Of a stretch of 64,000 bases of DNA, positions 3,410 to 18,180 are shown one piece after another. Location: assembly GCA_003599865.1 (NCBI GenBank), contig QZKS01000068.1:1-64000 (forward strand). The letters are read 5' to 3'. Made by a program: the position numbers and the translations under genes. Under the pieces are notes generated by a model. The model was not told the origin of the DNA, searched no databases, and saw nothing but the letters and a program-made list of their open reading frames with translations. Positions within the stretch are counted from its first letter, which is position 1. Each line of letters begins with the position of its first letter. Source of the DNA: Desulfobacteraceae bacterium (GTDB lineage Bacteria > Desulfobacterota > Desulfobacteria > Desulfobacterales > SURF-7).

Positions 3410-3422
3410 AAAGGAAAAAACC

Positions 3423-4181
3423 ATGCGCTTCCGGCCATGTATTGATATTCATCAGGGAGTTGTCAAACAGATTGTCGGCTCCTCATTGACGGATGAAGGA
3501 GACAGCCCGAAAACCAATTTTCAGGCAGACAAATCCTCCGGATGGTATGCCTCCTTGTATCAAAAGGACAACCTCTTTGGTGGGCATGTGATTCAGCTTG
3601 GACCGGGCAATGAAAAAGCCGCGACCGAAGCCCTGGAAGCCTGGCCCGGCGGCATGCAGATCGGCGGGGGCATCCATGCGGACAATGCCCAACAATGGCT
3701 TGACCGGGGAGCATCGGCGGTGATCGTAACCTCATGGGTGTTTCATGACGGAACCCTTGATATGGACCGCCTCAAACAGCTGGTCAACCGGATCGGCAAA
3801 AACCGGCTGGTGCTGGACCTGAGCTGCCGGAGAACGGAAAATTCCTATACCATAGTCACCAACCGCTGGCAGACCTTTACCCGGGAAATCATTGATTTTC
3901 CTCTGCTGGACAAGCTGTCCGGATACTGTGAGGAATTCCTGATCCATGCGGTGGATGTGGAAGGCAAGTGCAGCGGAATTGAAACCGGCCTGGTCGAACT
4001 CCTTGGAAAATGGGCCGGCATTCCCATTACCTATGCGGGCGGGATTCACTCCATGGAGGATATCCATCAGATTCGGAAAATGGGGAAAGGATACATTGAT
4101 TTCACGGTTGGAAGCGCGCTCGACATCTTCGGCGGCACCCAGCTCAAATACCAGGACCTTGCCGGACGGTTCGGCAGCTGA
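3423..4181 (+). CDS. hisA: ProFAR isomerase HisA, eukaryotic (HIS6) type
   Basis: The product (252 residues) is a TIM-barrel isomerase that would convert ProFAR to PRFAR in histidine synthesis. Its sequence follows the yeast/plant HIS6 branch rather than ordinary bacterial HisA: CIDIHQGVVKQIVG (6-19), PKTNF (29-33), HVIQLGPGN (55-63), VIVTSW (100-105), LDLSCRRT (131-138), EFLIHAVDVEGKCSGI and DFTVGSALDIFGG. Candidate catalytic aspartates are D8 and D132. The ATG at 3423 was chosen because a purine-rich ribosome site (GAAAGGAAA) precedes it and family homology starts there; an upstream in-frame start would overlap the ferredoxin gene by ~300 bases. No other histidine gene is nearby, so it is an isolated copy next to catabolic genes. 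Confidence 0.88.
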   Translation: MRFRPCIDIHQGVVKQIVGSSLTDEGDSPKTNFQADKSSGWYASLYQKDNLFGGHVIQLGPGNEKAATEALEAWPGGMQIGGGIHADNAQQWLDRGASAVIVTSWVFHDGTLDMDRLKQLVNRIGKNRLVLDLSCRRTENSYTIVTNRWQTFTREIIDFPLLDKLSGYCEEFLIHAVDVEGKCSGIETGLVELLGKWAGIPITYAGGIHSMEDIHQIRKMGKGYIDFTVGSALDIFGGTQLKYQDLAGRFGS

Positions 4182-4196
4182 TTGCAGGAGAAAAAC

Positions 4197-4973
4197 ATGC
4201 TCGTTACCACACAGAAAAAAGACCGCATTTGCCGGATCACGATCAACCGTGAACCGGTGAAAAATGCTGTTGACGCTCCCACAGCCAAAGCCCTTGCCGA
4301 TGCGTTCCGGGACTTTGAAGAGGACGAAGAATCGTATGTGGCCATCCTTGCCGGCGCCGGAAACACCTTTTGCGCCGGCGCGGATCTCAAAGCGGTTTCC
4401 CATGCCGCCGAAGGCCGCTTCAACCGGCTGGAGCCCACAGGCGACGGCCCCATGGGACCGACCCGGATGGTATTGTCCAAACCGGTCATCGCCGCCATCT
4501 CCGGTTATGCCGTGGCTGGCGGTCTTGAGCTGGCCTTATGGTGCGATATGCGGGTCATGGAAGAAACCGCCATACTGGGCGTGTTCTGCCGAAGGTTCGG
4601 TGTACCGCTCATTGACGGCGGAACCATAAGGCTGCCCCGACTGATCGGCATGAGCCGTGCCATGGATCTGATTCTGACCGGCCGCCCGGTTAAAGCGGAT
4701 GAAGCTCTTTCCATCGGACTGGTGAACCGGGTTGTAGGTCACGGGCAGGGATTGGCCGCAGCCGAAGAACTGGCCGCCACCATTGCCGCCTTTCCCCAGA
4801 CCTGCATGAGAAATGACCGGCTGAGCGCCTATGAACAATGGAATCTCTCTCTGGAAGATGCCCTGCTCAACGAATTCAACCGGGGAATGGAAGTCATCCG
4901 CAGCGGAGAGACGCTGGCCGGAGCAGGCCGTTTTGCACAAGGCATCGGCAAGCATGGTCAATTTGAAAAATAG
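4197..4973 (+). CDS. Enoyl-CoA hydratase/isomerase (crotonase) family protein
   Basis: A 258-residue crotonase-fold protein, of normal family length, acting on an acyl-CoA thioester. The oxyanion-hole motif NTFCAGADLK (56-65) and the SGYAVAGGLELALWCD block (102-117) are present. The first catalytic glutamate of classical hydratases is kept (E111). The position of the second one falls in GVFCRRFGVPLIDGG (128-142) and reads as cysteine (C131). This FCRRFGVPLIDGG signature is typical of a crotonase subfamily whose substrates are poorly known, so water addition should not be assumed. The ATG at 4197 has an AGGAG six bases upstream; a TTG at 4182 is less likely. It directly follows hisA and precedes the main operon promoter. 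Confidence 0.85.
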   Translation: MLVTTQKKDRICRITINREPVKNAVDAPTAKALADAFRDFEEDEESYVAILAGAGNTFCAGADLKAVSHAAEGRFNRLEPTGDGPMGPTRMVLSKPVIAAISGYAVAGGLELALWCDMRVMEETAILGVFCRRFGVPLIDGGTIRLPRLIGMSRAMDLILTGRPVKADEALSIGLVNRVVGHGQGLAAAEELAATIAAFPQTCMRNDRLSAYEQWNLSLEDALLNEFNRGMEVIRSGETLAGAGRFAQGIGKHGQFEK

Positions 4974-5009: not shown

Positions 5010-5038
5010 TTGACAGGAAAATCAGCCCACGATAAATT
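5010..5038 (+). promoter_or_regulatory. Sigma-70-type promoter of the GMC/HAD operon
   Basis: A perfect -35 hexamer TTGACA (5010-5015) is followed, after 17 bases, by TAAATT (5033-5038), which matches four of six positions of the -10 consensus. It lies ~60 bases upstream of the GMC gene, in the only sizeable gap before ten tightly packed genes. A palindrome overlaps the -10 region. Confidence 0.65.
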
Positions 5039-5061
5039 GTCGACAATCGACAATGATCGAC
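5036..5061 (+). promoter_or_regulatory. Palindromic operator overlapping the promoter
   Basis: ATTGTCGACAAT (5036-5047) is a perfect palindrome. A second, overlapping inverted repeat TGTCGA-CAA-TCGACA spans 5039-5053, and a third partial ATCGAC follows. The block covers the -10 end and the expected transcription start. The core TTGT-CG-ACAA resembles the GT/AC dyads bound by FadR-subfamily GntR regulators, and such a gene lies at the end of this operon (17071-17739). Binding by that protein is an inference. Confidence 0.6.
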
Positions 5062-5096: not shown

Positions 5097-6392
5097 ATGG
5101 ATACCATCTCCCGCAAACCCTATGATGCAATTGTTGTCGGATCCGGACCCGGAGGAGCAACCGTTGCAAAGGAACTGACGGAAAAAAACAAAAAGGTCCT
5201 CATATTGGAATGGGGGGATAACTGGCGCGTACGGGGCACAAACTGGCAGACCGCCGCTATGGCAGGCGTGCCCGGCAGAAGCCTTCTGGTCACCAACAAG
5301 GCACTGGCCATGGTCAGGGGAATCACCACCGGCGGAAGCTCGATTTTCTATTATGCAACCGCATTTGAACCGCCGGTGGACATGCTCAAATCCTATGGTC
5401 TGGATATCACACAGGAGATTCAGGAAATCCGGGAAGAACTTCCCACCAAACCCCTGAAGGACGAACTGATCGGCCCCGGCGCCGGACGGATAATGCAAAG
5501 CGCCCGGGAACTGGGTTATGACTGGAACAAACTCCCCAAGTTTATCTACCAGGACAAATGCCGGGCGGAATGCTGGCGCTGCGACTATGGATGCCCGTAT
5601 GGAGCCAAATGGAACGGCAGACATTATGTTGAACAGGCGCTGGAAAAGGGTTCCACCCTGATCAACCGTGCAAAAGTACAGAAGGTGATCGTCGAGAACA
5701 ATACGGCGGTCGGCGTGGAATATAAAAAATGGGGCTCCACGTTTCAGGCCTTTGCGCCCAAAATTATTCTTTCCGCCGGCGGTATCGGGTCTCCGGTCAT
5801 TTTACGAAAGAGCGGAATCTACGGCGCCGGTTATGACTACTTCTATGATCCCCTGATCTGTGTCATGGGAACCGTCAATAACCTGAACGGCGGAAAGGAA
5901 ATTCCCATGGCAACGGGAATTCACATGGAAGAAGAAGGATATGTCATGACCGATATGACCGTGCCCCGAACCCTCTACATGCTGTTTGCCGCCGAGGTGT
6001 TCCGGTTCCATAAGCTTTTCTCGCACAGCAACACCCTGCAGATCATGATCAAGGCAAAGGACAGCCTGGGTGGCCGGGTAACCTATAATGAAGGTGTCCG
6101 GAAGAAGCTGGCAAAAGAAGACCAGGCAAAACTGATGAAAGGATATGAACGGGCAAAACAGATTCTGAAATACGCCGGTGCCAGGGATATATTCAAAACC
6201 TGGTATGTTGCGGCTCATCCCGGCGGAACCGCCAAGGTCGGCGATATTGTGGATTCTGATCTGAAAACCAAATATGAAAATCTGTATGTCTGCGACTGTT
6301 CGGTCATACCGGAAGCGTGGGGATTGCCGCCCACATTTACCCTCATTGCCCTGGGAAAAAGACTGGCAAAACATATTGCCGCCGGATTCTGA
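5097..6392 (+). CDS. GMC-family FAD oxidoreductase
   Basis: A 431-residue flavoprotein of the glucose-methanol-choline oxidoreductase family. The dinucleotide-binding motif VVGSGPGG is at 13-20, the second flavin loop GITTGGSS at 75-82, and the C-terminal catalytic region has AAHPGGTAKVGD and PPTFTLIALG. A cysteine-rich stretch, CRAECWRCDYGCPYGAK (155-171, spacing C-x3-C-x2-C-x3-C), resembles the CP-x-GAK segment of long-chain alcohol oxidase relatives. It oxidises an alcohol or a ring carbon, with electrons going to an unknown acceptor. The start has a strong AGGAGG site. It is the first gene of the promoter-led operon that also encodes the HAD/BCR modules, so it probably acts on the same alicyclic or acyl-CoA substrate (inference). 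Confidence 0.85.
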   Translation: MDTISRKPYDAIVVGSGPGGATVAKELTEKNKKVLILEWGDNWRVRGTNWQTAAMAGVPGRSLLVTNKALAMVRGITTGGSSIFYYATAFEPPVDMLKSYGLDITQEIQEIREELPTKPLKDELIGPGAGRIMQSARELGYDWNKLPKFIYQDKCRAECWRCDYGCPYGAKWNGRHYVEQALEKGSTLINRAKVQKVIVENNTAVGVEYKKWGSTFQAFAPKIILSAGGIGSPVILRKSGIYGAGYDYFYDPLICVMGTVNNLNGGKEIPMATGIHMEEEGYVMTDMTVPRTLYMLFAAEVFRFHKLFSHSNTLQIMIKAKDSLGGRVTYNEGVRKKLAKEDQAKLMKGYERAKQILKYAGARDIFKTWYVAAHPGGTAKVGDIVDSDLKTKYENLYVCDCSVIPEAWGLPPTFTLIALGKRLAKHIAAGF

Positions 6393-6424
6393 CATTTTCA
6401 AACCGTACAGGGGGATGATGACGA

Positions 6425-7918
6425 ATGCACACCGAACAACAGCAGCAAATTCCCAGACAGGGGATCTATAAAAAGAAAACCGCAGACAGCAATGGATACG
6501 ATCCGTTATCCCTGCTGCTCTCGGAACTGATTCATACCCGAGAAGTCCGGACCCTTCTCGCCAAAGCGATACCCGAGGTTCTCCATGCATGGGCCGGCGA
6601 GAACTTTGCCAAAAAAATCACCACCCGGGCCATTGGAAAAAACATCCAATCCGGATTGTCGCGTCCGGAAGATGTTCTGGGTCAGGAAGAACTGGCCGAA
6701 CTGTTTGGCCGTCCGGATCGCATTCGAAATATAACGGAACTGCTTCCCGGCTTGCTGGGTGTGTTTTTTGATATCGCCAATGAACTGGGAAAAGGACTGG
6801 AAAGCCTCCCGCCGGCCGAAAAACAAAAAGCCGTTGGCAGACTGCTGTCCGGCATGTTCTCCGGAAGAACCGGAAAAGTGATCACAACCTGGGCCAGGGT
6901 AATTTCCGGTACGCAATCGGATTCCCCTTATTTTGTCAAAGAAAGTATCGCGCCCGGCATCATCAAATGGATGGAGAATACCGATTTTGGAGAGCTCAAA
7001 GACCTCCTTGACTCCATCCACGAGATCTCGGGTGAAACCATAAAAATCATCAATGACGCCATCTGGAAGTATCCGTCAAAAGTCGTTCTCCTGGTTTCCT
7101 TTTTACCTTCCATGATCAACATTCTGATCAAGGTGATCAACGAATGTGTCGGCCGGTTCAATAACCTTGCGCCGGACCTTGTTGCCGATGTCGTTCTTTC
7201 CTGCTTCCGGGATATTGACGCCAAACATCTCGGCCGGACAGTCAACGAGTTTGCCGAACTGATTCGAAAACTGGATACCGGCAGTTCACTGATCGGCGAT
7301 TCCGGTGTATCCGGCCTGAATCGGGATCTGTCGGGATTTCTGAACGACTTTTTTGCTTCCCTTCACATGGAAACACTTTTCCGGGCACGCGAAGGACTGG
7401 CTGCCGGAAAGGAAACGGTTTCCGCCAGGATGTTTAAAATTTTACAAGAAAATCCGCAGATCGTTCTGGATTCCATCAGCCGGTCGCCGTCGCGCTACAA
7501 TCCTGCCATCAAAAACATGAGTCGAAAAGCCGCTCTGGTATGTGATCTTCCGGAACAGGAAACCGCCGAAGCCTTTTCAACAACCTTGTCCCAGCTGGAT
7601 TGTTCTGAAATGGCGGAGATCGTAAACCTGATGTCGTTGCTGACCAACCGGATCCGCAGATACAATACAAAACTGCTGCCCTCCCTGGTATCGCAAATCA
7701 TTGACAGCCTTGATCTGGTTGAAGTGGAAGAAGCGGCCTCCGGCATTATCAACGACATGGGAAAAAGCATGAAGCCGCTCGGACGGGTCGTCCTTCCCCA
7801 TTTGATCACGATGGCATGCGACTGGCTGTCATCGGATGAAAATCAGGAGGAGCCTGCGATGAAAAATGCAAGACAGGCGATTCAATCCCTGATGCAGCCA
7901 AAGGAGGTGCCGGTATGA
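6425..7918 (+). CDS. Unrecognised helical protein in HAD/BCR operon
   Basis: I do not recognise this 497-residue protein. It has no signal peptide and no metal motif; the few cysteines are scattered. The sequence reads as a run of amphipathic helices with HEAT-like spacing, for example about 60-130, 190-260 and 400-460. A moderately hydrophobic stretch near 220-240 (VVLLVSFLPSMINILIKVI) could touch a membrane. The start has AGGGGG ten bases upstream, and the last bases overlap the next gene by ATGA. Its fixed place between the GMC enzyme and the C subunit suggests a scaffold or assembly role; this is a guess from position only. Confidence 0.75.
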   Translation: MHTEQQQQIPRQGIYKKKTADSNGYDPLSLLLSELIHTREVRTLLAKAIPEVLHAWAGENFAKKITTRAIGKNIQSGLSRPEDVLGQEELAELFGRPDRIRNITELLPGLLGVFFDIANELGKGLESLPPAEKQKAVGRLLSGMFSGRTGKVITTWARVISGTQSDSPYFVKESIAPGIIKWMENTDFGELKDLLDSIHEISGETIKIINDAIWKYPSKVVLLVSFLPSMINILIKVINECVGRFNNLAPDLVADVVLSCFRDIDAKHLGRTVNEFAELIRKLDTGSSLIGDSGVSGLNRDLSGFLNDFFASLHMETLFRAREGLAAGKETVSARMFKILQENPQIVLDSISRSPSRYNPAIKNMSRKAALVCDLPEQETAEAFSTTLSQLDCSEMAEIVNLMSLLTNRIRRYNTKLLPSLVSQIIDSLDLVEVEEAASGIINDMGKSMKPLGRVVLPHLITMACDWLSSDENQEEPAMKNARQAIQSLMQPKEVPV

Positions 7919-9051
7919 TGGAAATATTTGAAGAGGCCGCATCCGGAATCACCAACCGGTATATTACAGACTGGGTGAACAGCGGTAAAAAAGTCATCGG
8001 GTATACCTGCTCCTTCCTGCCGCCTGAAATTTTTCATGCCGCAGGCATCCTTCCTTACCGGCTGCGGGGAATTACCACCGAAAGCATGGAAATCAGCGAT
8101 GCCTACTACGGACCATATGTCTGCACTTTTCCCAAGTGCCTGCTTCAGCTCGCAGGCGAAAAAAAACTCAGCTTTTTAAGCGGCGCCGTCATTTCCACCG
8201 GATGTGATGCCATGAGACGACTGGATGAATGCTGGCGAAAAACCGGAGAGGATTATCCGGGCTCCATTCCTGATTTTTTTCACTACTTTGATGTTCCCCA
8301 CAAAACAGACCCCCATGCCATACAATGGTTTGAAAATGAAATCCGGAAACTGATCCGGAAGATTGAAACCGATTACCATGTCAACATCACCGAAGAGAAT
8401 CTGAAACAATCCATATCCCTCTATAACCACGGCAGAATGCTTCTCTGGGAAATCGAAAAGCAACGGTCCCTGAAAGACGCCAAAATTTCCGGCACGGATG
8501 CTTTTTCCATTGCCGTTGCCGGAACAGTCATGCCCCGGGAAGCGTTCAATGACGCCCTTGAACAACTGCTCCCGGATCTGTCCCGGCAAAAATCGAACCC
8601 GGCTAATGGCAACCGTCGCATCATGGTAGCCGGAAGCATCAATGACGACATCGAACTGATCCGCCTGATTGAAAATGCCGGTTCCACTGTGGTTGCGGAC
8701 AATATCTGTTTTGGAATCCGGAGTGAATCCGATCAGGTGGATATGGATGATGAGCCCATATCCGCACTCACCAGACACTATCTTTCCAATTCCGTGTGTC
8801 CGCGAATGTTCGGTGCCTACCGGCAGCGCTTTGACCTGCTGAAGGCAAAAATCGAACGGGCCGGTGTGGAAGGAATCATTCTTCAGAACATCCGCTTCTG
8901 CGACCTTCATGGATCGGAAAACGGCCTTTTCGAACGGGATTTTGAAAAAATGGGCATCCCCTGTCTTCGGCTGGAACGGGAGTACGGACCTTTGACCGAA
9001 ACCGGAAGGATGAAAATGCGCATTGAGGCATTCCTGGAACGGATGGCGTAA
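7915..9051 (+). CDS. HAD/BCR-family subunit, BcrC-like (module 1)
   Basis: A 378-residue member of the 2-hydroxyacyl-CoA dehydratase D component/benzoyl-CoA reductase (HgdB, BcrB/BcrC) family. It should hold a [4Fe-4S] cluster in a cytoplasmic heterodimer with the next gene product. The three expected ligand cysteines are visible in GYTCSFLPPEIF (~30-41), STGCDAMRR (~96-104) and RFCDLHGSENG (~325-335). C-terminal ERE-containing blocks (CLRLEREY) are also typical. It overlaps the helical protein gene by four bases and is followed by B-, A- and D-like genes. This is the order C-B-A-D known from bcrCBAD of Thauera. Substrate is unknown; benzoyl-CoA is possible but not shown. Confidence 0.85.
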   Translation: MMEIFEEAASGITNRYITDWVNSGKKVIGYTCSFLPPEIFHAAGILPYRLRGITTESMEISDAYYGPYVCTFPKCLLQLAGEKKLSFLSGAVISTGCDAMRRLDECWRKTGEDYPGSIPDFFHYFDVPHKTDPHAIQWFENEIRKLIRKIETDYHVNITEENLKQSISLYNHGRMLLWEIEKQRSLKDAKISGTDAFSIAVAGTVMPREAFNDALEQLLPDLSRQKSNPANGNRRIMVAGSINDDIELIRLIENAGSTVVADNICFGIRSESDQVDMDDEPISALTRHYLSNSVCPRMFGAYRQRFDLLKAKIERAGVEGIILQNIRFCDLHGSENGLFERDFEKMGIPCLRLEREYGPLTETGRMKMRIEAFLERMA

Positions 9052-9076
9052 AAAATCTTAACGCAGGAGAGATCAC

Positions 9077-10477
9077 ATGAGACCTGAAGTATATCAGTAC
9101 AATTTTGACTGGATGCTCTGGCGAACCCTGGAGGCTGCATCAAAAGTGGCCGACGGCTATGATAAGGAGTACCGGCGCATGCTGCCCTATATTCCCTATT
9201 TCAGGGGGATCGTGGAACCTTTTATCAACCTGGGAGATCCGGGTATCGCCTTTTTCAAACTGATCGACAAATACCTGAAAAATATCGTGTCCGCCCATGA
9301 ACAGGGGAAAAAAATCGTCATGTCCACCTTCTGTTTTTCCCCCACTATTTTTTATGCCATGGATATCGTACCGGTAACCCTGGAAGTTCTCACGACGCTC
9401 GGTTCCGTCATGTGGAAACGCGGGGCGACCGAATACATGGATTTCTGTGTCGAGCTCGGTTTTACCGAAACCTCCTGCTCCTCCCAGAGAGGATGTCTGG
9501 GCGCCTATCTGGCGGGTCTGGGCGAAGAAATCGATATGCTGGTCATCAATACGGCAGGAATCTGCGATACCAATGCCAATGCTTTTGCTTTTGCCAAAAC
9601 CTTTATGGACAAGCCATTCTACTCCCTGAATTATCCGGCAAGCCTGACCGATCCGGAAGCCAACCAGTATCACCGTGACGACTTCAAGGCACTGATCCGA
9701 TTTCTGGAAGATCAGACCGGGAAAAAACTGGACCAGGATCGACTGGGAAAGATTCTGGAAGAGGTGGCCAGGCAGGAAGCCATTGTAGGAGAAATGGAAG
9801 AACTGCAGCGGCTTATACCCAACCCGCTGCCCGTCACCTATAATTTTCTGATCTATGGCGGACGCTTTTTCTTTTCCGGCATGCCCGAATACACGGGAAT
9901 TCTGGAAGAGATGGTAAAGGTCGTCCGGCAAAATGCCGAAAAGGCCCGATCCGGTATCTCATCGGGCAAGGAGAAGCTCCGGGCTTTCATGTTTTATATT
10001 GATCATTATGCCCTGAATCTTCAACTCTGGGACTTTTTCGACAAGCATGACATCAGCCATATCGGAAGCATTCTCAGCCGCTCCTTCAAGGACGATTCTC
10101 CTTATGTAAAAGGCATGGAAGATGTTGCCTACCATATTGACGCAACCAACCTCGACACCATGATCGACAGCATTGCCATGATCAACTCCCGAATGCCCAT
10201 GGTCCGCTCCATCCGGGGTCCCTATGACCGGCCGAACATGTGGCTGGAGGAATCGCTGGCCCTGGCCAAAATGTACAAGGCAGATTGTCTGATCTACAAT
10301 GGCACTCCCGGATGCCGAAACACATGGTCCAATGTAAAGCTGATAGCACGGGATATGGAAAAAGCCGGATATCCGACCCATATCATGTACGGGGATGCCT
10401 TTGACGACCGGGTGGAATCCTGGGAGGCAACCGCTGCGCGGCTGGATGAATTTTTTACGGTCAGGGGGCTATTATGA
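9077..10477 (+). CDS. HAD/BCR-family subunit, BcrB-like (module 1)
   Basis: A 466-residue HgdB/BcrB-family protein and probable partner of the preceding subunit. Candidate cluster cysteines sit in STFCFSPTIF (~85), TETSCSSQRG (~135), AGICDTNANA (~158) and GTPGCRNTWS (~415). The order and contexts match the family. The ribosome site AGGAGAG lies a few bases before the ATG at 9077. The stop overlaps the next activase by ATGA. With the C-like subunit it would form the substrate-reducing or dehydrating core, which accepts electrons from the ATP-driven activase dimer encoded just downstream. The substrate cannot be read from sequence. Confidence 0.85.
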   Translation: MRPEVYQYNFDWMLWRTLEAASKVADGYDKEYRRMLPYIPYFRGIVEPFINLGDPGIAFFKLIDKYLKNIVSAHEQGKKIVMSTFCFSPTIFYAMDIVPVTLEVLTTLGSVMWKRGATEYMDFCVELGFTETSCSSQRGCLGAYLAGLGEEIDMLVINTAGICDTNANAFAFAKTFMDKPFYSLNYPASLTDPEANQYHRDDFKALIRFLEDQTGKKLDQDRLGKILEEVARQEAIVGEMEELQRLIPNPLPVTYNFLIYGGRFFFSGMPEYTGILEEMVKVVRQNAEKARSGISSGKEKLRAFMFYIDHYALNLQLWDFFDKHDISHIGSILSRSFKDDSPYVKGMEDVAYHIDATNLDTMIDSIAMINSRMPMVRSIRGPYDRPNMWLEESLALAKMYKADCLIYNGTPGCRNTWSNVKLIARDMEKAGYPTHIMYGDAFDDRVESWEATAARLDEFFTVRGLL

Positions 10478-11268
10478 GTATCGTTGCAGGATGTGACATC
10501 GGTTCTTTGACGGCAAAGGCAGTCATTATGGAAAACGGCAGGATCATCAGTTCGGCGCTCCTTCGATCCAAGACCAATCCCCAGCTTTCCGCAGAAGCGG
10601 TCATGAAGGAAGCGTTATCCAAAACCGCTCTTTCCATGGATAACATTCAATTCTTTGTGGGAACGGGATATGGAAGGAAAAACATATCCTTTGTCAACCA
10701 GGCCATCTCTGAAATCGCCTGCCACGGAAAAGGCGCGCGCTGGCTGATCCCCGGCGCCAGAACCATCATCGATATCGGCGGTCAGGACTGCAAGGCGGTC
10801 CGGCTCGACCAGGACGGCAATGTGGTCAAATTCGTGGCCAACGACAAATGCGCTTCCGGAACCGGCCGTTTTCTGGAAGTCATGGCACGCCTTCTCAACA
10901 TCTCCATAGAGGAGCTGGGAGGCCTGAGTTCCCGATCCACCGCCCCCATCATCCTTTCCTCAACGTGCACGGTCTGGGCCCAGGCGGATATCATCAAGTA
11001 CATCAATTCCGGGCATAAAATCGAGGATATCGGAGCCGGAGTGAACAGCGCCATGGCCAAACGGGCTGCCATACTGGCAAACAGCGTCGGCATCGAACCG
11101 GATGTCTGCATGACCGGCGGAGTGGCCAAAAACGAGGGTGTGGTCCGCGATCTGGAAAAACTGCTGGGGAAGAATATCAAAAGAACCCGAAAGGCGGACC
11201 CGCAGATTGCCGGAGCCATTGGTGCGGCTATTTTTGCCATGGAAAAAGTAAACGGGAGGTCCAAATGA
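10474..11268 (+). CDS. BcrA/BadF-type ATPase, activase (module 1, A-like)
   Basis: A 264-residue ASKHA-fold ATPase of the acyl-CoA dehydratase activase family. Seen are the phosphate-binding start GCDIGSLTAKAV, the GTGYGR loop, DIGGQDCKAVR, and the cluster cysteine in NDKCASGTGRFLE (~125-137). The second cluster cysteine is in STCTVWAQADI (~165-175). Two such subunits share one [4Fe-4S] cluster and use ATP hydrolysis to push low-potential electrons into the HgdB-like core. The usual FAES-E stretch after the second cysteine is WAQAD here, unlike the other two activases of the operon, so this copy may play the non-equivalent role in an A-D heterodimer. It overlaps both neighbours by four bases. 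Confidence 0.88.
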   Translation: MSIVAGCDIGSLTAKAVIMENGRIISSALLRSKTNPQLSAEAVMKEALSKTALSMDNIQFFVGTGYGRKNISFVNQAISEIACHGKGARWLIPGARTIIDIGGQDCKAVRLDQDGNVVKFVANDKCASGTGRFLEVMARLLNISIEELGGLSSRSTAPIILSSTCTVWAQADIIKYINSGHKIEDIGAGVNSAMAKRAAILANSVGIEPDVCMTGGVAKNEGVVRDLEKLLGKNIKRTRKADPQIAGAIGAAIFAMEKVNGRSK

Positions 11269-12047
11269 TAGCAGCAGGATGTGATGTAGGTTCTCTTTCG
11301 GCAAAGGCCGTGATCCTGAAAGATCAGGCCATTATCGGAAAAGGTGTAGTCCGGGCCGGGACCAATCCCATGGATTCCGCCAGTAAAGCCATGTCCATTG
11401 CGCTTGCCGATTCCGGCCTCTCTCTGGAAAGCATCGAGAGAATTGTGGCTACCGGCTATGGAAAGGAAATGATTCCGTTTGCCCATGCGGTTGAGTCGGA
11501 AATCGTCTGCCATGCCAGGGGGGCATTCTGGAATCTGCCCCAGGCCAGAACGGTGATCGATATCGGGGGTCAGGATGCAAAGGCCATTCGCATGGATGAA
11601 AACGGAAATGTCGTCCGCTACCTGTATAATGACAAATGCGCTTCCGGAACCGGCCGTTTTCTGGAGGTCATGGCCGATGCCCTGGATATCAAACTCGACG
11701 ACATGGGGCAAATTTCCTCCCAGTCCACGGAAAAACTCGTCATTTCAAATCAGTGCGTTATTTTTGCCGAAACCGAAGTGGTTTCCCTGGTCAATGAAGG
11801 CCGGGCGGTCCCGGATATCATCAAGGCGCTTCATACGGCCATGGCCGGACGTGTGGCTTCCATGGTGCTCAGCATCGGAGCCGAGGAGGATATTGTCATG
11901 ACCGGCGGAGGGGCCAAAAATTCAGGATTGTTTGCCGCGCTCTCCGTCTCCCTCAAAAGACCGGTTCATGCCATGAAAAACATCGATCCGCAAATCAACG
12001 GAGCCCTTGGTGCCGCCCTGATCGCCTCCGGAATGAGCCGGCAATAG
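11265..12047 (+). CDS. BcrD-type ATPase, activase (module 1, D-like)
   Basis: A 260-residue activase of the same family as the preceding gene, with GCDVGSLSAKAV at the N-terminus, GYGKEM, DIGGQDAKAIR, NDKCASGTGRFLE and the more canonical NQCVIFAETEVVSL. The last two hold the two cluster cysteines. It ends in the TGGGAKNSG nucleotide-binding loop and DPQINGALGAAL. The pair A-like plus D-like matches the heterodimeric ATPase of class I benzoyl-CoA reductases (BcrA/BcrD or BzdP/BzdQ); the short ~260-residue length of both fits the Bzd type better. It overlaps the previous gene by ATGA and ends one base before the next start. Confidence 0.88.
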   Translation: MIAAGCDVGSLSAKAVILKDQAIIGKGVVRAGTNPMDSASKAMSIALADSGLSLESIERIVATGYGKEMIPFAHAVESEIVCHARGAFWNLPQARTVIDIGGQDAKAIRMDENGNVVRYLYNDKCASGTGRFLEVMADALDIKLDDMGQISSQSTEKLVISNQCVIFAETEVVSLVNEGRAVPDIIKALHTAMAGRVASMVLSIGAEEDIVMTGGGAKNSGLFAALSVSLKRPVHAMKNIDPQINGALGAALIASGMSRQ

Positions 12048-12048
12048 C

Positions 12049-12783
12049 ATGAAGCTGTTTCACGATATTATTCAGGACGTCCGGTCGTTCATGGACAAAC
12101 CGCGGTCATCCGTTTCCGTGAAGGCGTTTCAGGCCGTTTCGGAAATACCATGGCCGGAAGCCGGTCCAAGGGACATCATCTTGCAGTCCGATACCGGCGT
12201 GGAACTGGGAAATCCGAGGGATCAGTCGGTTTCCTTTCTGGTCTGGACCAACGACCTGTCTCTGGTGCAGGATGGAAGCATTTCACTGCTCGGTCCGGAT
12301 ATTGGTGAAACCGATGCCAACCGTCTTCCCTTTGGAAGGGTAGTTCTGATCGGCGGCACCGGATTTGACGAGGAAAACAGCTATGCCCGGTTCCGGGAAA
12401 TGGATCTCTCCCGGTATGACATCTCCCTGAAAGGATATATGATGCGGGCCGTTTCCCAGTATATGAGGGAATGGAGCCGGATCAGCCGGGAGGCGGTTGA
12501 AAACCGGTTTTCCCTGCCCCTTCTCGGAAGCGCGATGATGCGGCAGTTGAAAACCTTTGATTATGTGAAATCCGTTGAAGTAATGTTTGTCACTTCTTCC
12601 AATCCGGATGTGCTGGAATTAAAGCAAACCGGAGACCGGTTTATCCGGATCATCAACGCCATGACCCGAATGGCCGAAGATCATAATTTTGACTGCGAAA
12701 CCTGTGAGTTTCAGCCGGTCTGCAACGAAGCGGAAGAGTTAAGAAGGATGCACAAGTCCCTGAAGGAAAAACAGCCAATATGA
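12049..12783 (+). CDS. Acetyl-CoA-synthase-like domain protein, function unknown
   Basis: A 244-residue protein of uncertain role. Its middle part (about 55-170) recalls the domain of the CODH/acetyl-CoA synthase beta subunit that lies before its A-cluster domain. The pattern is an ELGNP-x-SVSFL-WT stretch, ISLLGPDIGE, PFGRVVLIGG, then a helical block like YMMRAVSQYMREWSRIS and a LLGSAMMRQLK segment. The C-terminus has CETCEFQPVC (C-x2-C-x6-C), a possible metal site. There is no nickel A-cluster domain, so CO chemistry is not implied. It is followed, with an ATGA overlap, by a CooC-like ATPase, which in CODH systems is the nickel-loading partner; this pairing supports the resemblance. Confidence in the family call is moderate. 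Confidence 0.55.
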   Translation: MKLFHDIIQDVRSFMDKPRSSVSVKAFQAVSEIPWPEAGPRDIILQSDTGVELGNPRDQSVSFLVWTNDLSLVQDGSISLLGPDIGETDANRLPFGRVVLIGGTGFDEENSYARFREMDLSRYDISLKGYMMRAVSQYMREWSRISREAVENRFSLPLLGSAMMRQLKTFDYVKSVEVMFVTSSNPDVLELKQTGDRFIRIINAMTRMAEDHNFDCETCEFQPVCNEAEELRRMHKSLKEKQPI

Positions 12784-13541
12784 CGGAACATCCGAAAATC
12801 ATTGCCGTGTGCGGCAAAGGCGGGGTGGGAAAAACCAGCATCAGCGCGCTTTTGACCATCCTGCTCGCCGGAGAAAAATCCCGGAAGGTTCTCGCCATTG
12901 ACGCAGACCCGGCAGTGGGCCTGTCCCTTCCCCTGGGCATTGCGGTCCACAAAACCCTAGACCAGATCCGGAATGACCTGATTCGATCCATTGAAAACGG
13001 CGAAAAATCCGGAAAGGAAGAATTGCTCAACAGATTGGATTATGAACTGTTTTCATCCCTTTCGGAAAAAGACAATCTGGCCTTTCTCGCCATCGGCAGG
13101 CCGGAAGGTGACGGATGCTACTGCCAGGTCAACAGCCTGCTGCGGGAAATCATTCAGAATATCGCCGCCCGGTTCGATTTTGTGGTGATTGACGGGGAGG
13201 CCGGAATCGAACAGATCAACCGGCGGGTCATGGAAATGGTCACCCATCTGTTTCTCGTAACCGACTCCTCCATCAAGGGGCAAAATGTAGCCGCCGTCAT
13301 TGAGAACGTGGCCCGGAAAAAAATCCAATTTCAGAAAGCCGGCATTTTTTACAATCGCATGCAAGACGAAGAAGAAGTACACCAGCTTCTCCAAAGGAAC
13401 AAGCTTCCGGTGATCGGGTGGATGCCTGAAAATCCGGAGATCCGGAAATATGACCGGGAAGGGAAAAGCTTTTTTTCCTTTCCGGACAGCATTGTCATGA
13501 CTTCCCTGAAACAAGCGGTTCAAGGATTTATTTATGAATAG
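12780..13541 (+). CDS. CooC/MinD-like P-loop ATPase
   Basis: A 253-residue SIMIBI-class ATPase. The deviant Walker A CGKGGVGKTSIS lies at about 11-22, Walker A' is AIDADPAVGLS, and the switch region is VVIDGEAGIEQ. Near residue 113-120 is GDGCYCQVN; the C-x-C in this context is the signature of CooC-type maturation ATPases, which bind nickel or other metal at the dimer interface and load CO dehydrogenase. No CODH gene is in the window, so the client may be one of the HAD/BCR cores or the ACS-like protein. Alternatively it could be a third ATP-driven activator. It overlaps the ACS-like gene by four bases and the next gene by eight. Confidence 0.8.
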   Translation: MTEHPKIIAVCGKGGVGKTSISALLTILLAGEKSRKVLAIDADPAVGLSLPLGIAVHKTLDQIRNDLIRSIENGEKSGKEELLNRLDYELFSSLSEKDNLAFLAIGRPEGDGCYCQVNSLLREIIQNIAARFDFVVIDGEAGIEQINRRVMEMVTHLFLVTDSSIKGQNVAAVIENVARKKIQFQKAGIFYNRMQDEEEVHQLLQRNKLPVIGWMPENPEIRKYDREGKSFFSFPDSIVMTSLKQAVQGFIYE

Positions 13542-14670
13542 TCAAACCAACAGTCCTGCGCTCTTTTTTGAAGACCTCCTAGACGACCCGGCCAATCATC
13601 TGATTGAAAGCGCCGCGGATCAGGAAAAAATCCCCATCGGATACACGTGCAGTTATGTTCCGGAGGTCCTCCTGTCTGTCGAGCCCCTGATACCGGTCCG
13701 GGTTCGGGCGCCCCATGTTCCGGGAACGGAGGTCGCCGACATTTATCTGTCCAGCGTGATCTGCTCCTATACCCGGAGCGTGCTGGAACTGGCCATGGAC
13801 GACCGGTATCATTTTCTGCAGGGATGGGTTTTTGCCGCAAGCTGCGATCATATGCGGCGCCTGTACGACAACCTGAAGTACCTGAATCCGCCGGAGTTCC
13901 TGCACATCCTGGATGTGCCGCATCGGCAGGGAGCGGTTTCTCTGTCCTGGTATACGGACGAACTGAACATGCTGGCGGACAGGCTGTCCGATCATCATCC
14001 GGTCCGCTTCACGCACGAAGCGATGTCCCGGGCCGTCCGGGAGCGCAATGAATTTTTTGCCCTGCTCGCATCCATCGGAGAACTCCGGAAACAAAAACAT
14101 CCGCCCCTGTCCGGAACGGAATTTCAGGCCATCACCCTTGCTTCCCTGGTAACGCCCCGGCAAACGCTTCTGCCGAAAATTCAGAAATTCAAGGAGTCCC
14201 TTTCCGGCCGGAACGGCATTTCCGATTACCGGGCAAGGATTCTCCTGGTCGGCGGTCAGATGGACAGTCTCGGCTTTATCCGGACCATCGAAGCCACCGG
14301 CGGACTGATCGTTGCCGATCATCTCTGTACCGGCTCCCTCCCGGCAATGAGGCCTGTCAGCATGAATGACGATCCCATGCAAAGCATCGCCGCCCATTAC
14401 CTGAACCGGGTTTCCTGCCCCAGAATGATGGAGGCATTTGATTCCCGTGTGGAAGAAATCCTGAAAAGCGTCGAAGAATACAGCGTTGACGGGGTGGTCA
14501 TCGAGTTTATCAAATTCTGCGATACCTGGGGTATTGAAGCCGGCCTGATGGCCAATGCCCTGCGAAAAAAAGGAATCCCGGTTTTGTGCCTGGAACGGGA
14601 GTATCAGCTATCCGGAGAAGGACAGCTCCGTACCCGCATTCAGGCCTTTATCGAAAGCATGGGGAAGTGA
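13534..14670 (+). CDS. HAD/BCR-family subunit, BcrC-like (module 2)
   Basis: A second 378-residue HgdB/BcrC-family protein, the same length as the module 1 copy. It keeps all three candidate ligand cysteines: GYTCSYVPEV (~35-44), AASCDHMRR (~108-116) and KFCDTWGIEAG (~328-338). The C-terminal LCLEREYQ block is also kept. It therefore should bind a [4Fe-4S] cluster. Similarity to the first copy is clear but distant, so this is an old paralogue rather than a fresh duplication. The eight-base overlap with the CooC-like gene ties the ATPase to this module. Confidence 0.85.
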   Translation: MNSQTNSPALFFEDLLDDPANHLIESAADQEKIPIGYTCSYVPEVLLSVEPLIPVRVRAPHVPGTEVADIYLSSVICSYTRSVLELAMDDRYHFLQGWVFAASCDHMRRLYDNLKYLNPPEFLHILDVPHRQGAVSLSWYTDELNMLADRLSDHHPVRFTHEAMSRAVRERNEFFALLASIGELRKQKHPPLSGTEFQAITLASLVTPRQTLLPKIQKFKESLSGRNGISDYRARILLVGGQMDSLGFIRTIEATGGLIVADHLCTGSLPAMRPVSMNDDPMQSIAAHYLNRVSCPRMMEAFDSRVEEILKSVEEYSVDGVVIEFIKFCDTWGIEAGLMANALRKKGIPVLCLEREYQLSGEGQLRTRIQAFIESMGK

Positions 14671-14677
14671 ATTGATC

Positions 14678-16111
14678 ATGAAAGAAAAAATCATCTATAC
14701 CCTTGTGTATTGTCAGTACTGGACCATTACATGGATGAAAATCATTCCGTTTATTCTGCGGCATGGACTGTATGATACGGTACGGGACCTGCGCCGCTAT
14801 CCCTGGCTGTGGATCATGCTCAAGGTCAACCGGCTTCTGGGAAAATTCGGAAAAGGACGTTCCCTCCGCTATCAGCAGGCAGTTTCCATCCTGGTTTCCG
14901 GAATCGTATCCGGTGTAACCGACATGCTGGGCAATATTTTTTTCCGGCCGGACCGTCTGATCATTCACGAGGACATGGTGCCTCCGGAGATCTTCAAGGC
15001 CATGGGACTGTCCACCTTCATGGCCGAACTCAACGGCATCATGCTGCCCATGATCGAACCCCATGCCATGGAGCAGTATATTGATGAATCCGAAAACCAG
15101 GGGATTCCGCCCGACATCTGCAGTCTGCCCAAAAGCACCATGGGCCTGTTTCTCAAGGGAGAAACCCCTCCGGCAAAGGCCATGGTGACCTCCAATCTGC
15201 CCTGCGACGCGGGTATGAGTTCCTATGCCCTGATTGAACAGAAGCTGAAACTGCCGACCTTCCGGCTGGACATCCCTTATCATTTCAAGGATGAGAGAGC
15301 CCTTCACTTTTTCGTTGATGAACTGAAACGGATGATCGCCTGGCTGGAGGAAAAAACGCCCGGAAAAATGGACTGGAACCGGCTTCGTGAAATCTGCGAA
15401 GAGCGGAACCGCATGGCGGAACTGGAGATGGAACTCTGGGATCTGGCCCGGATCAGGCCTGCACCCATTGCCGGTGAAGCAATCTGGCTGTCCCATATGT
15501 GGTTTTTCAATCTGTTTCCGGGAAGCCCCGAGGCCACCGACATCTTCCGGAAAATCCTGGCACTCGGGAAACAGAATCTGGCCGAAGGTGTCCCTGCGGT
15601 CAAAAATGAAAAATACCGGGCTCTGTTATGGAATCCGCCCCTCACCCACTTTATCGACCTGTTCAACTGGGCCGAACACGCCTACGGGGTTTCCCTGATC
15701 ATGGACAGCATGACCTTCAACCGCCTGCCGTTTATCGATACGGCATCCAATGAAACCATGCTGCAGGGACTGGCGCTCAATATCATGAACGGCCCCATGG
15801 CCAGACATACCAGAGGCCCGGCTGAAAACTACATGGATGACATCTTTTACATCCATAAGCAGTTTGATCTGGACATGCTGTGGGTCGCAGGCCATATCGG
15901 CTGTAAAAACACCCAGGCCCTGAACGGCATCCTGCGGGAAAAATGCCGTGAAGCCGGTCTTCCGCTCCTGATCATTGACTATGACCTGTCCGACCCGAGG
16001 ATCGTTTCCCGGGAAGGGATTATCAACCAGATCGATCATTTTATGGAAAATATCATGAAGGCAAAACGGCTGGACCCAAAAGCCGGATCAACACAGGAGA
16101 GCAAATCGTGA
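14678..16111 (+). CDS. HAD/BCR-family subunit, BcrB-like, divergent (module 2)
   Basis: A 477-residue HgdB/BcrB-family protein. The start at 14678 is preceded by GGGGAAG; a TTG at 14672 is also possible, and homology does not support the longer frame that begins inside the previous gene. Three family cysteines are seen: PPDICSLPKS (~147), SNLPCDAGMSS (~173) and GHIGCKNTQA (~415). The first one, in the STFCFSP segment of the module 1 copy, is replaced by methionine in IHEDMVPPEIF (~105). The N-terminal ~60 residues are extra and partly hydrophobic. The changed cluster environment suggests a different cluster, substrate or redox role. It ends overlapping the GTG start of the next gene. Confidence 0.8.
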   Translation: MKEKIIYTLVYCQYWTITWMKIIPFILRHGLYDTVRDLRRYPWLWIMLKVNRLLGKFGKGRSLRYQQAVSILVSGIVSGVTDMLGNIFFRPDRLIIHEDMVPPEIFKAMGLSTFMAELNGIMLPMIEPHAMEQYIDESENQGIPPDICSLPKSTMGLFLKGETPPAKAMVTSNLPCDAGMSSYALIEQKLKLPTFRLDIPYHFKDERALHFFVDELKRMIAWLEEKTPGKMDWNRLREICEERNRMAELEMELWDLARIRPAPIAGEAIWLSHMWFFNLFPGSPEATDIFRKILALGKQNLAEGVPAVKNEKYRALLWNPPLTHFIDLFNWAEHAYGVSLIMDSMTFNRLPFIDTASNETMLQGLALNIMNGPMARHTRGPAENYMDDIFYIHKQFDLDMLWVAGHIGCKNTQALNGILREKCREAGLPLLIIDYDLSDPRIVSREGIINQIDHFMENIMKAKRLDPKAGSTQESKS

Positions 16112-16908
16112 CCTCAACAAATGGCCGGTATTATGCCGGATGCGACGTCGGGTCCACCACCGGCAAAGCGGTAATTCTAAATGAAACAGGCATCCTGTCC
16201 ACTGCGATCGTCCCTGCCGAAATCGACCCGGAACAGACCGCCCGCAAGGTGCTGGCCAAAGCCTGTGAAAACATCCAGGGGCTTTCCGGAACCGATGACT
16301 TCTCCTTTCTGGTGGGAACCGGATACGGCCGGAACGAAGTCCCCTTTGCCAATGACAATGTATCGGAAATCAGCTGTCATGCCCTGGGGGTTCATTCCTG
16401 CGATCCCTCCATTAAAACCATCGTGGATATCGGCGGACAGGATGTAAAAGGAATCGCCATTGGTGACGACGGCTCGATTCTGGAATTTGCCATGAACGAC
16501 AAGTGTGCGGCCGGCACCGGCCGGTTTCTGGAAATGATGAGCAAGATATTCCGGATGGACCTGGATGCTTTTTCCAGCCTTTCCCTGGAGGCAAAGCATG
16601 CCATCCCGGTCACATCCCAGTGCAGTGTGTTTGCGGAAACCGAGGTGATCAGCCTGCTTTCCAAACGAAAAGCCCCTGCTGAAATCGCTGCCGGGATCCA
16701 GGCCTCGGTTGCCAAAAGAAGTTTTACCCTGCTCAAACGGGTGGGCATCCGGCCCAAACTGACCGTTACCGGCGGATGCTCCAAGAACAAGGGGCTGATC
16801 ATGGCACTTGAAAAAAGACTGCGCATGGATATCACCCCTTTGCCGGTGGACCCCCAGCTCATGGGAGCATTGGGTGCCGCGATTACCGCCCGTAAAAAAG
16901 GGAAATGA
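16108..16908 (+). CDS. HAD/BCR activase ATPase (module 2)
   Basis: A 266-residue ASKHA ATPase of the activase family, starting with GTG (16108) that overlaps the previous stop, behind AGGAGAG. Motifs: AGCDVGSTTGKAV, GTGYGRNEV, DIGGQDVKGI, NDKCAAGTGRFLE and SQCSVFAETEVISL with both cluster cysteines, and TGGCSKNKG near the end. There is only one activase in module 2. It may act as a homodimer, as HgdC-type activases do, whereas module 1 has two different ones. It is the last gene of the tightly coupled run that begins at 5097. Confidence 0.88.
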   Translation: MTSTNGRYYAGCDVGSTTGKAVILNETGILSTAIVPAEIDPEQTARKVLAKACENIQGLSGTDDFSFLVGTGYGRNEVPFANDNVSEISCHALGVHSCDPSIKTIVDIGGQDVKGIAIGDDGSILEFAMNDKCAAGTGRFLEMMSKIFRMDLDAFSSLSLEAKHAIPVTSQCSVFAETEVISLLSKRKAPAEIAAGIQASVAKRSFTLLKRVGIRPKLTVTGGCSKNKGLIMALEKRLRMDITPLPVDPQLMGALGAAITARKKGK

Positions 16909-17070
16909 ACAGACCCTGATCATTGTTACTATTTTCTTGAAATTAAATGATTGATAAGCGATATTCTGTGAGTCGGTTTTACCCCTATGAAAATCTTGTA
17001 TGAAGCAAAAAGATCCGTTTCCGCAACACCCGGTGGAGCGGGAAACAATTTGTCGCCATTCAGCGGGATT

Positions 17071-17739
17071 ATGAACATGCCCTTTAAAATTTCATCCAAC
17101 CTGTCCGAACAGATTGCCGAACACATTACCGACAAGATTATCCGGATGGAAATCAGGCCCGGAGAGCGGATCATGGAAACCGCCATTGCCGATGAGCTTG
17201 CGGTGAGCCGGAGTCCGATCCGGGAAGCCCTCCGCATCCTGGAAAAAAACCGGCTGATTGAACTGACCCCCAGACGCGGCGCACGCGTTACGGAACTGTC
17301 CGAGACCTTCATTGCCCATTTGTGCGATATCCTTGCCGTGCTCCTTGGCCTTACCGCCAACCAGTGCGTGGAAAACGGAAGTGACCTGGACCTGAAAAGC
17401 ATCGATGATGCGGCCGGAGAGAGTGAACGGGCCGTGAGCCGGGACGATGTATATGGATACTATAAGTCCGTATTTGAGTTTGCCATCGCGTGCCTGAAAG
17501 CCACCCGCAACCCGCTGCTGGAACAGATGGTTGAGGAGCTCATGCCCAATGTGCGCAGAATCCTGTATGCATCCTTTTCCACCAAAAAGGAAGAACTGCA
17601 GAAAAATGTTCAGATCCTTTTAACCGGAAACCGGTATGTCCAGGAACGAAACGGCAAAATGGCGGAAAAAACCGTCTGTGACTATGTGCAAAAAGCAAAA
17701 GAATTTGCCTTGAAAAATAAAATATTCTCGAGCCCATGA
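17071..17739 (+). CDS. GntR-family transcriptional regulator (FadR/FCD type)
   Basis: A winged-helix regulator (222 residues from this start). The GntR DNA-binding domain is clear: SEQIAEHITDKII, then RPGERIMETAIADEL and VSRSPIREALRILE with a recognition-helix pattern, followed by RRGARVTEL. The rest is a helical FCD-type effector domain. The start is uncertain: an in-frame ATG at 16987 gives 250 residues without a ribosome site, while ATGs at 17071 and 17077 fit family length. Members usually respond to acyl-CoAs or organic acids and repress nearby catabolic operons. The palindrome at 5036-5053 is the likely target (inference). A four-base overlap couples it to the lipoprotein gene. Confidence 0.85.
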   Translation: MNMPFKISSNLSEQIAEHITDKIIRMEIRPGERIMETAIADELAVSRSPIREALRILEKNRLIELTPRRGARVTELSETFIAHLCDILAVLLGLTANQCVENGSDLDLKSIDDAAGESERAVSRDDVYGYYKSVFEFAIACLKATRNPLLEQMVEELMPNVRRILYASFSTKKEELQKNVQILLTGNRYVQERNGKMAEKTVCDYVQKAKEFALKNKIFSSP

Positions 17740-18167
17740 AAATTTTTTTTGCCAAACATAACAAGCCTTGTTCCCAAAATTTCCTTGCTCCGGCATGTGT
17801 TTTCCTGCTGCTCTTTGCATCCTGCACTTACAGGCCGGTCCCGGACATGGATACCCTGAACCGGAAATGGAATGGAAAACCGTTCAGCGCCCTGGTGGAA
17901 AAACTGGGCTTTCCTCATCATGAGACATCCCATCCGGACGGTGAAAAACAGTATACCTACCGGTATACGCCCAGGCCCGTATTTGACGATATTTTCCGGG
18001 GGGAATTCATGAGCGACATGTCCACCATTCGAATTCAGGAAGATCTGGCACGGGAAGAGCGTTCCAGGTGCCTGCTGGACATTTTTGTCAAGGATGGCAG
18101 GATCATCCATCTGGAGGCGGAAGGGCTGGGCTGCCGGGATATCCGGGATCGACTGGGAGAAGAGTGA
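17736..18167 (+). CDS. Putative lipoprotein, function unknown
   Basis: A 143-residue protein with an N-terminal hydrophobic segment ending in a lipobox (LLFASC, cysteine about residue 30), so it is probably lipid-anchored. The mature part contains a region (about 40-75) with the look of a small SmpA/OmlA-like fold: LVEKLGFPHHET followed by KQYTYRYTP. It overlaps the gntR stop by ATGA and precedes the TRAP binding protein. I do not recognise a specific family. Confidence 0.65.
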   Translation: MKIFFAKHNKPCSQNFLAPACVFLLLFASCTYRPVPDMDTLNRKWNGKPFSALVEKLGFPHHETSHPDGEKQYTYRYTPRPVFDDIFRGEFMSDMSTIRIQEDLAREERSRCLLDIFVKDGRIIHLEAEGLGCRDIRDRLGEE

Positions 18168-18180
18168 AAGGAGCCGCATC

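Follow-up and report, generated by a model that had tools for sequence, protein, structure and literature searches.

A 64,000-nucleotide stretch of a Desulfobacteraceae genome (contig QZKS01000068.1, assembly GCA_003599865.1; the whole stretch is called the window below) carries an operon of eleven co-directional genes at positions 5097-16908, a real and widespread gene set that appears to encode a variant of the ATP-driven double-cubane reductases with an unusual accessory pair. The genes specify, in order, a GMC-family flavoprotein, an all-helical protein (HEL), a reductase core with two activases (C1, B1, A1 and D1; module 1), a short ACS-like protein, a CooC-like ATPase, and a second core with one activase (C2, B2 and A2; module 2). 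The junctions between them range from -8 to +32 bases. Open reading frames, family matches and junctions agree with the families and the tight coupling described by an earlier reading of the letters alone (the sequence-only reading), although the ten genes counted there became eleven on recounting. As far as sequences can tell, we give slightly better than even chances to the view that the operon represents an undescribed clade of the superfamily of benzoyl-CoA reductases (BCR), 2-hydroxyacyl-CoA dehydratases (HAD) and double-cubane cluster proteins (DCCP), in which a core ATP-driven low-potential reductase, joined optionally by a second one, would serve inducible catabolism with the help of the accessory pair. 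The host genome is 5.0 Mb in size and 97% complete.

Both cores keep the cysteines that bind the clusters of class I BCR. PMC11971306, in which BzdNO was produced anaerobically in E. coli, names Cys 36/73/100/263/293/327 as the [8Fe-9S] ligands of BzdN and Cys 95/128/380 as the [4Fe-4S] ligands of BzdO. All six double-cubane cysteines are present in C1 (70/70) and C2 (26/26), and all three [4Fe-4S] cysteines in B1 (92/92) and B2 (25/25); these counts refer to unique sequences, since earlier pooled counts mixed loci sharing some contigs, and the residues were read off alignments at about 20% identity. In B1, C86, C134, C163 and C413 are invariant (92/92 unique), Cys86 being an extra, fourth cysteine. 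C1 also retains the surroundings of the BzdN cluster, namely R53, S239, R267 (68/70) and H330; in C2 the His330 position is occupied by Trp and position 267 is mostly hydrophobic. By comparison, MbdN of 3-methylbenzoyl-CoA reductase keeps just three of the six cysteines, and HadC lacks two of them. The cysteine pairs of the activases are likewise conserved: C126 and C165 of A1 in 76/76, C125 and C164 of D1 in 75/75, and C133 and C172 of A2 in 23/23 sequences. A1 scores 185.8 bits against BcrA vs 133.0 against BcrD, and D1 149.0 bits against BcrD vs 143.1 against BcrA. With all these cysteines kept, the earlier proposal of two complete ATP-driven cores with their activases stands, and we infer that clusters of the corresponding types may occupy both.

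In phylogenetic trees, the subunits from the ACS-linked loci form one supported clade, both for C (40 rows, 99/98) and for B (42 rows, 100/99), which excludes BzdNO, MbdNO, HadBC, DCCP and the paralogues of the same genome (four C and three B). The suspicion that the B/C pairs belong to something undescribed is upheld to the extent that they fall outside the BCR, HAD and DCCP clades tested. The scores point the same way: C1 stays below the equivalog cut-offs for BCR (TIGR02263, 137.0 vs 421.15 bits; TIGR03190, 128.8 vs 453.8 bits), and C1 and C2 reach 175.5 and 178.3 bits in the DCCP family NF040772 vs a cut-off of 350. DCCP resembles the operon proteins in its six-Cys cluster and in having no thioester tyrosines, and it is the top solved match of B2, narrowly over BzdO; however, the operon B and C subunits are separate chains in a separate clade, and DCCP groups in the trees with the own-genome paralogue L068 and others. 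HadBC-HadI shares the fold family, the activase and the three [4Fe-4S] cysteines of the B-type subunit, but apart from the incomplete set of cysteines in HadC, neither B1 nor B2 has the two HadB tyrosines discussed below, and the operon C subunits do not group with HadC.

As the loci of these trees had been picked via the ACS-like protein or B1, a wider survey was made of 60 regions, chosen from the best PF06050 matches listed in 69 genomes of the phylum. The C clade persisted in the wider tree (98/85; 40 rows, 23 of them surveyed), from which one C row below 150 bits was omitted. Among the matches listed, 41 surveyed C subunits fall outside the clade, six of them near a region end, and none has an ACS-like gene within 9 kb. 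Across 297 genomes of the phylum, clade C was found in 26 and a short ACS-like protein in 25; both occurred in 21, the clade only in five and the ACS-like protein only in four (Fisher 9.7e-24, uncorrected for relatedness). HEL was present in 16/297 genomes, all clade-positive and 15 of them with the ACS-like protein. These genome counts are lower bounds, obtained by scoring the best first-look candidates per genome. A clade C call required at least 392 bits, the next match scoring 366; the ACS-like count of 25 comprises 24 genomes with open frames of 219-350 aa and G427 with one of 571 aa; G176 was scored clade-negative although its C2 is split in two frames (L202). The idea that the ACS-like protein is a general double-cubane marker was dropped, as the six-Cys paralogues of the same genome (L068-L071) and the surveyed rows grouping with DCCP have no ACS-like gene in reach; the latter rows are surveyed relatives, and the gene neighbours of DCCP itself lie outside that comparison.

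The gene order was followed from two sides. When the ACS-like protein was searched against 146 relatives and the neighbourhoods of the matches were inspected, the short ACS-like homologues were well separated from true ACS, and the unit GMC-HEL-C1-B1-A1-D1-ACS-CooC recurred around them. ACS-like genes were also seen with module 2 alone (L064, L066, L067) and with neither reductase nearby (L048, L062, L063, L065). A scan of a species-genome collection with the B1 alignment gave 128 relatives, from which 78 loci were kept. The named records closest to the window locus are metagenome-assembled genomes (MAGs) of Desulfobacterium and Desulfocicer. The complete genome of Desulfoluna limicola ASN36 (L099) has the unit GMC-HEL-C1-B1-A1-D1-ACS-CooC. 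Judged by record title, and MAG titles may conceal mis-binning, nine loci belong to Spirochaetes/Spirochaetota, one to SAR324 and one to Bacillota; the remainder are mostly from Desulfobacterota (Deltaproteobacteria), including Smithella and Syntrophaceae, with both Desulfobacterales and Syntrophales records represented. With the same order found again in records from several phyla, the operon is more than a chance arrangement.

Gene content was counted in the 34 loci that extend at least 5 kb upstream and at least 6 kb downstream of B1 (wide-context loci). HEL, C1, B1, A1 and D1 are each present in 34/34, B1 by construction since it was the scan query; the ACS-like gene is found in 32/34, the CooC-like gene in 32/34, and GMC in 24/34. 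The C2-B2 pair is found, on either strand, in 13/34 wide-context loci, and C2 in 16 of the 40 loci with at least 8 kb downstream. Both the ACS-like and CooC-like genes are present in 31 wide-context loci, 18 of which lack C2, and in two genomes (G077, G118) modules 1 and 2 lie on separate contigs. HEL-C1-B1-A1-D1-ACS-CooC is thus a recurring core module, to which module 2 adds a second reductase of the same clade in some loci; that the helical and ACS-like genes are parts of one conserved system, as had been anticipated, is supported by these counts. In L193, and less so in L192, the contig stops shortly past D1, and ACS-like and CooC-like genes could be hidden beyond. Of the ten wide-context loci without GMC, seven hold acyl-CoA-dehydrogenase-like genes, which are paired upstream of HEL in the six viewed; to judge from their sequences, the catalytic Glu that is usual near the C-terminus is apparently missing from this pair. 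Two B1 genes occur in 12 loci. Recurrent neighbours among the 78 loci are a 4Fe-4S ferredoxin-type protein of about 410 aa (18), a flavodoxin-ferredoxin fusion (3), AOR (7), SDR (7) and TetR (12). The B1 gene of L133 (1-3159) stands alone, preceded by a corrinoid protein gene and a small one with a match of the MetH C-terminal type.

In profile comparison the ACS-like protein matches ACS structures at E values down to 1.5e-16, the alignment spanning the middle (A2) domain and ending with the first Cys pair. It differs from ACS/CdhC in length (244 aa vs about 730) and in its incomplete A-cluster domain, since the chain ends about 20 residues past C225, the last residue of a CX2CX5C tail (C216/C219/C225) that is invariant in 26 rows. 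The CooC-like protein has CooC (3kje) as its best solved match, at E 6.3e-14, and shares with it the P-loop ATPase fold and a CXC (C113/C115, 66/66) that we take to be the metal motif of CooC; unlike that of CooC, its gene adjoins the ACS-like gene, and no CO dehydrogenase family is represented among the eleven genes. The ACS-like and CooC-like pair also accompanies other relatives (L194, L202, L204), and in L060 and L065 it adjoins a class-V aminotransferase gene, presumably of the cysteine-desulfurase type. Taken together, the pair suggests a role in cluster assembly or loading. Among the stray short ACS-like genes, those of L048 and L049 adjoin a RecB-like helicase and RecC and stop within the aligned stretch, and may be remnants; those of L205 and L206 are distant (25% identity) and lie by genes for an acyl-CoA-dehydrogenase-like protein and a TRAP binding protein, no reductase gene being detected in the stretch around them.

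Of the two remaining module 1 partners, GMC carries a CX3CX2CX3C motif in 32/41 aligned relatives, with His374 and C399/C401 conserved. HEL gave only weak, scattered family matches at E up to 1. Its AlphaFold2 model is all-helical with a mean pLDDT of 85.5 (61 sequences; 69.5 for a first model from 14 sequences), and internal repeats are weakly alike (hhalign, 94-98%). Neither model had a Foldseek match at E <= 0.001, and the best VIA-align Z was 5.1 for the first and 4.2 for the better model, the listed matches covering mostly residues 25-87 and 25-105; the lack of a fold match to such predicted models does not demonstrate a new fold.

The substrate pocket departs from that of the characterised enzymes. 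Tyr97 and Tyr298 of BzdO hydrogen-bond the thioester oxygen, according to PMC11971306. MbdO and HadB likewise have Tyr at the two positions; DCCP has it at neither. In B1 they are Ser/Ala and Leu (92/92 unique), and in B2 Leu/Phe/His and Met/Ile/Leu (25/25 unique); the Tyr97 position is safe, lying two residues past a ligand Cys, and that of Tyr298 is less certain. Among the surveyed B subunits, Tyr97 is found in 0/34 of the clade vs 28/35 of the others, and Tyr298 in 1/34 vs 23/35. The position of the acid/base His131 of BzdO is Asn in 92/92 B1 and Gly in 24/25 B2, a weak criterion with Phe in MbdO. To judge from these residues, the enzymes probably do not bind their substrate as a CoA-thioester in the BCR/HAD manner, and the acyl-CoA substrate assumed by the sequence-only reading is weakened because the thioester tyrosines are replaced in every B1 and B2 examined. 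Its observation that the ring-opening genes of benzoyl-CoA degradation are absent holds for the hydrolase also genome-wide, where no match exceeds the cut-off (best 75.7 bits vs 464.45).

Upstream of GMC, the palindrome ATTGTCGACAAT sits on the -10 of a TTGACA-17-TAAATT promoter-like site, and the exact TTGTCGACAA occurs only once in the window. Two loci of the same genus (L043 and L044) share promoter and palindrome; the palindrome was not seen in L059 in a comparison of upstream regions. It is this conservation and not the scan score that carries weight, because the scan found 17 promoter-like sites and shuffles too gave 8.5. The palindrome is likely an operator for a GntR regulator, and GntR genes lie near the operon in several loci. 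Catabolic paralogues often occur as two loci per genome, and by accession prefix at least five assemblies have two operon-type loci. Together with the regulators, the conservation of the palindrome and the variability of module 2, these doubled loci make inducible catabolism, governed here by GntR, the probable role of the operon.

By analogy with the superfamily, electron flow likely follows the usual course. A ferredoxin-type donor would reduce the activase dimer (A1-D1, or A2 alone for module 2), and ATP hydrolysis would drive electrons one at a time into the [8Fe-9S] cluster of C1 (C2) and on to the open-site [4Fe-4S] cluster of B1 (B2), where the substrate would be reduced or dehydroxylated in a radical step. 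The GMC flavoprotein may perform a coupled dehydrogenation, a task that the pair of acyl-CoA-dehydrogenase-like flavoproteins could take over in Syntrophales-type loci; HEL may be a helical repeat subunit or a substrate carrier. The ACS-like and CooC-like proteins would assist as accessories linked to the clade, their most likely task being to assemble or load clusters. In a literature search covering mostly the starts of abstracts, with subscription papers and preprints outside its scope, neither the gene set nor a link of ACS-like and CooC-like proteins to BCR-type reductases was found described, which is weak evidence of absence.

Several observations weigh against this picture. Only 5 of the 23 surveyed clade C subunits have an ACS-like gene within 9 kb, and 8 of the other 18 are near a region end; five clade-positive genomes have no ACS-like protein at the cut-off, and several clade members (L195-L200) have the ACS-like gene with no CooC-like gene nearby. 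The ACS-like protein is thus not strictly required locally; it is clade-linked and often not adjacent. The third [4Fe-4S] ligand position is His (CCH) in 5/34 clade B subunits, including L196, L064, L200 and L269. As to the substrate, Tyr97 is also absent from 7/35 non-clade B subunits, the Tyr298 position carries the uncertainty given above, and the crotonase and acyl-CoA-dehydrogenase-like neighbours make a CoA substrate possible. Moreover, an adjoining regulator is no proof of catabolism.

Module 1 could instead be an unusual class I aryl-CoA reductase that dearomatises an aryl-CoA whose CoA is bound otherwise. It shares with BzdNOPQ and BcrCBAD the C-B-A-D order, the A/D activase pair and the complete cluster cysteines, and C1 has the BzdN surroundings listed above. 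We nevertheless hold this unlikely: the trees place the pairs outside the BzdN/BzdO group, Tyr97, Tyr298 and His131 are replaced in all 92 B1 sequences (MbdO also lacks His131) in the presence of an extra Cys86, and a 97% complete genome has no ring-opening hydrolase above the cut-off. The operon is also linked to HEL, ACS-like, CooC-like and GMC genes, and the table passages available for the naphthalene thn operon (PMC12016498), with its class I reductase, list none of these four, which speaks against a THN-CoA type of reductase as well. Slightly less likely is a new class of ATP-driven radical reductases for non-CoA substrates with a heterometal (e.g. Ni-Fe-S) site in B, to which the CooC-like protein would deliver metal, the CX2CX5C tail of the ACS-like protein would offer a scaffold or docking site, and Cys86 would add a ligand.

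The sequence-only reading had two ATP-driven reductions acting in series on one acyl-CoA, with the CooC-like ATPase maturing or energising the second core. The two cores do belong to a single operon in the window, as they do in 13 wide-context loci in records of several phyla; however, most wide-context loci have no second core, and the cores of G077 and G118 are on different contigs. L066 and L067 have the CooC-like/ACS-like pair with module 2 and no module 1, but in 18 loci the pair stands with module 1 and no C2, and we regard the serial scheme, including a CooC-like protein dedicated to the second core, as quite improbable. The least probable of the readings considered is a lipid ester reductase like PlsA/Ger that produces ether lipids. 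The domain count is equal, with two activase and two reductase domains in PlsA/Ger according to PMC12838417, Ger acts in a sulfate reducer (PMC11150832), and HEL could bind lipid. Against this, the subunits of the operon are split, none of its eleven proteins matches DUF2229, and the nearby GntR/TetR-type genes and two loci per genome look catabolic. Two long PF09989 proteins are encoded elsewhere in the genome, one of 1471 aa (G000:C98) and one of 1441 aa (G000:C4). We take PF09989 to be the family carried by PlsA/Ger, and PlsA/Ger to be one long chain with DUF2229.

Features of the operon and its flanks in the window, with the matches that support them.
Feature	Position	Strand	Match or remark
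Promoter-like TTGACA-17-TAAATT overlapped by palindrome ATTGTCGACAAT	5010..5047	+	upstream of GMC
GMC-family flavoprotein, putative alcohol dehydrogenase	5097..6392	+	Pfam
HEL, all-helical, family-less; marks module 1	6425..7918	+	no Pfam/NCBIfam family at E <= 0.001
C1, BzdN-like double-cubane [8Fe-9S] subunit (predicted)	7915..9051	+	PF06050
B1, catalytic [4Fe-4S] subunit (predicted), extra invariant Cys86	9077..10477	+	PF06050
A1, ASKHA activase, nearer BcrA than BcrD	10474..11268	+	PF01869; TIGR00241 255.9 bits
D1, ASKHA activase, slightly nearer BcrD than BcrA	11265..12047	+	PF01869; TIGR00241 238.4 bits
Short ACS-like protein, ACS middle (A2) domain and CX2CX5C tail	12049..12783	+	PF03598
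CooC-like P-loop ATPase, invariant CXC	12780..13541	+	best solved match CooC 3kje
C2, second double-cubane subunit (predicted)	13534..14670	+	PF06050
B2, second [4Fe-4S] subunit (predicted)	14678..16111	+	PF06050; alternative upstream start open at 14555
A2, sole activase of module 2	16108..16908	+	PF01869 182.4 bits
GntR regulator, 78 bases past the operon	16987..17739	+	
Crotonase-family protein upstream of the operon	4182..4973	+	PRK08259 410.6 bits (cut-off 273)

At the flanks, only the nearest relatives (L043 and L044) showed a crotonase gene at the equivalent position. Further upstream lies a HisA gene (3405-4181) of the eukaryote type (TIGR02129, 368.4 bits, cut-off 229.3), and downstream of the GntR gene one for a TRAP substrate-binding protein (18085-19224), which is present in L043 and L044 too.

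Members of this superfamily attain potentials outside the normal biological range and break very inert bonds in anoxic environments. A separate clade with the double-cubane machinery and without the thioester tyrosines, linked to ACS-like and CooC-like partners of its own, would broaden the presumed scope of the superfamily, and makes the role of such proteins for a double-cubane reductase a testable question. Given its occurrence in records of Desulfobacterales, Syntrophales and Spirochaetes, the system may matter for anoxic carbon turnover.

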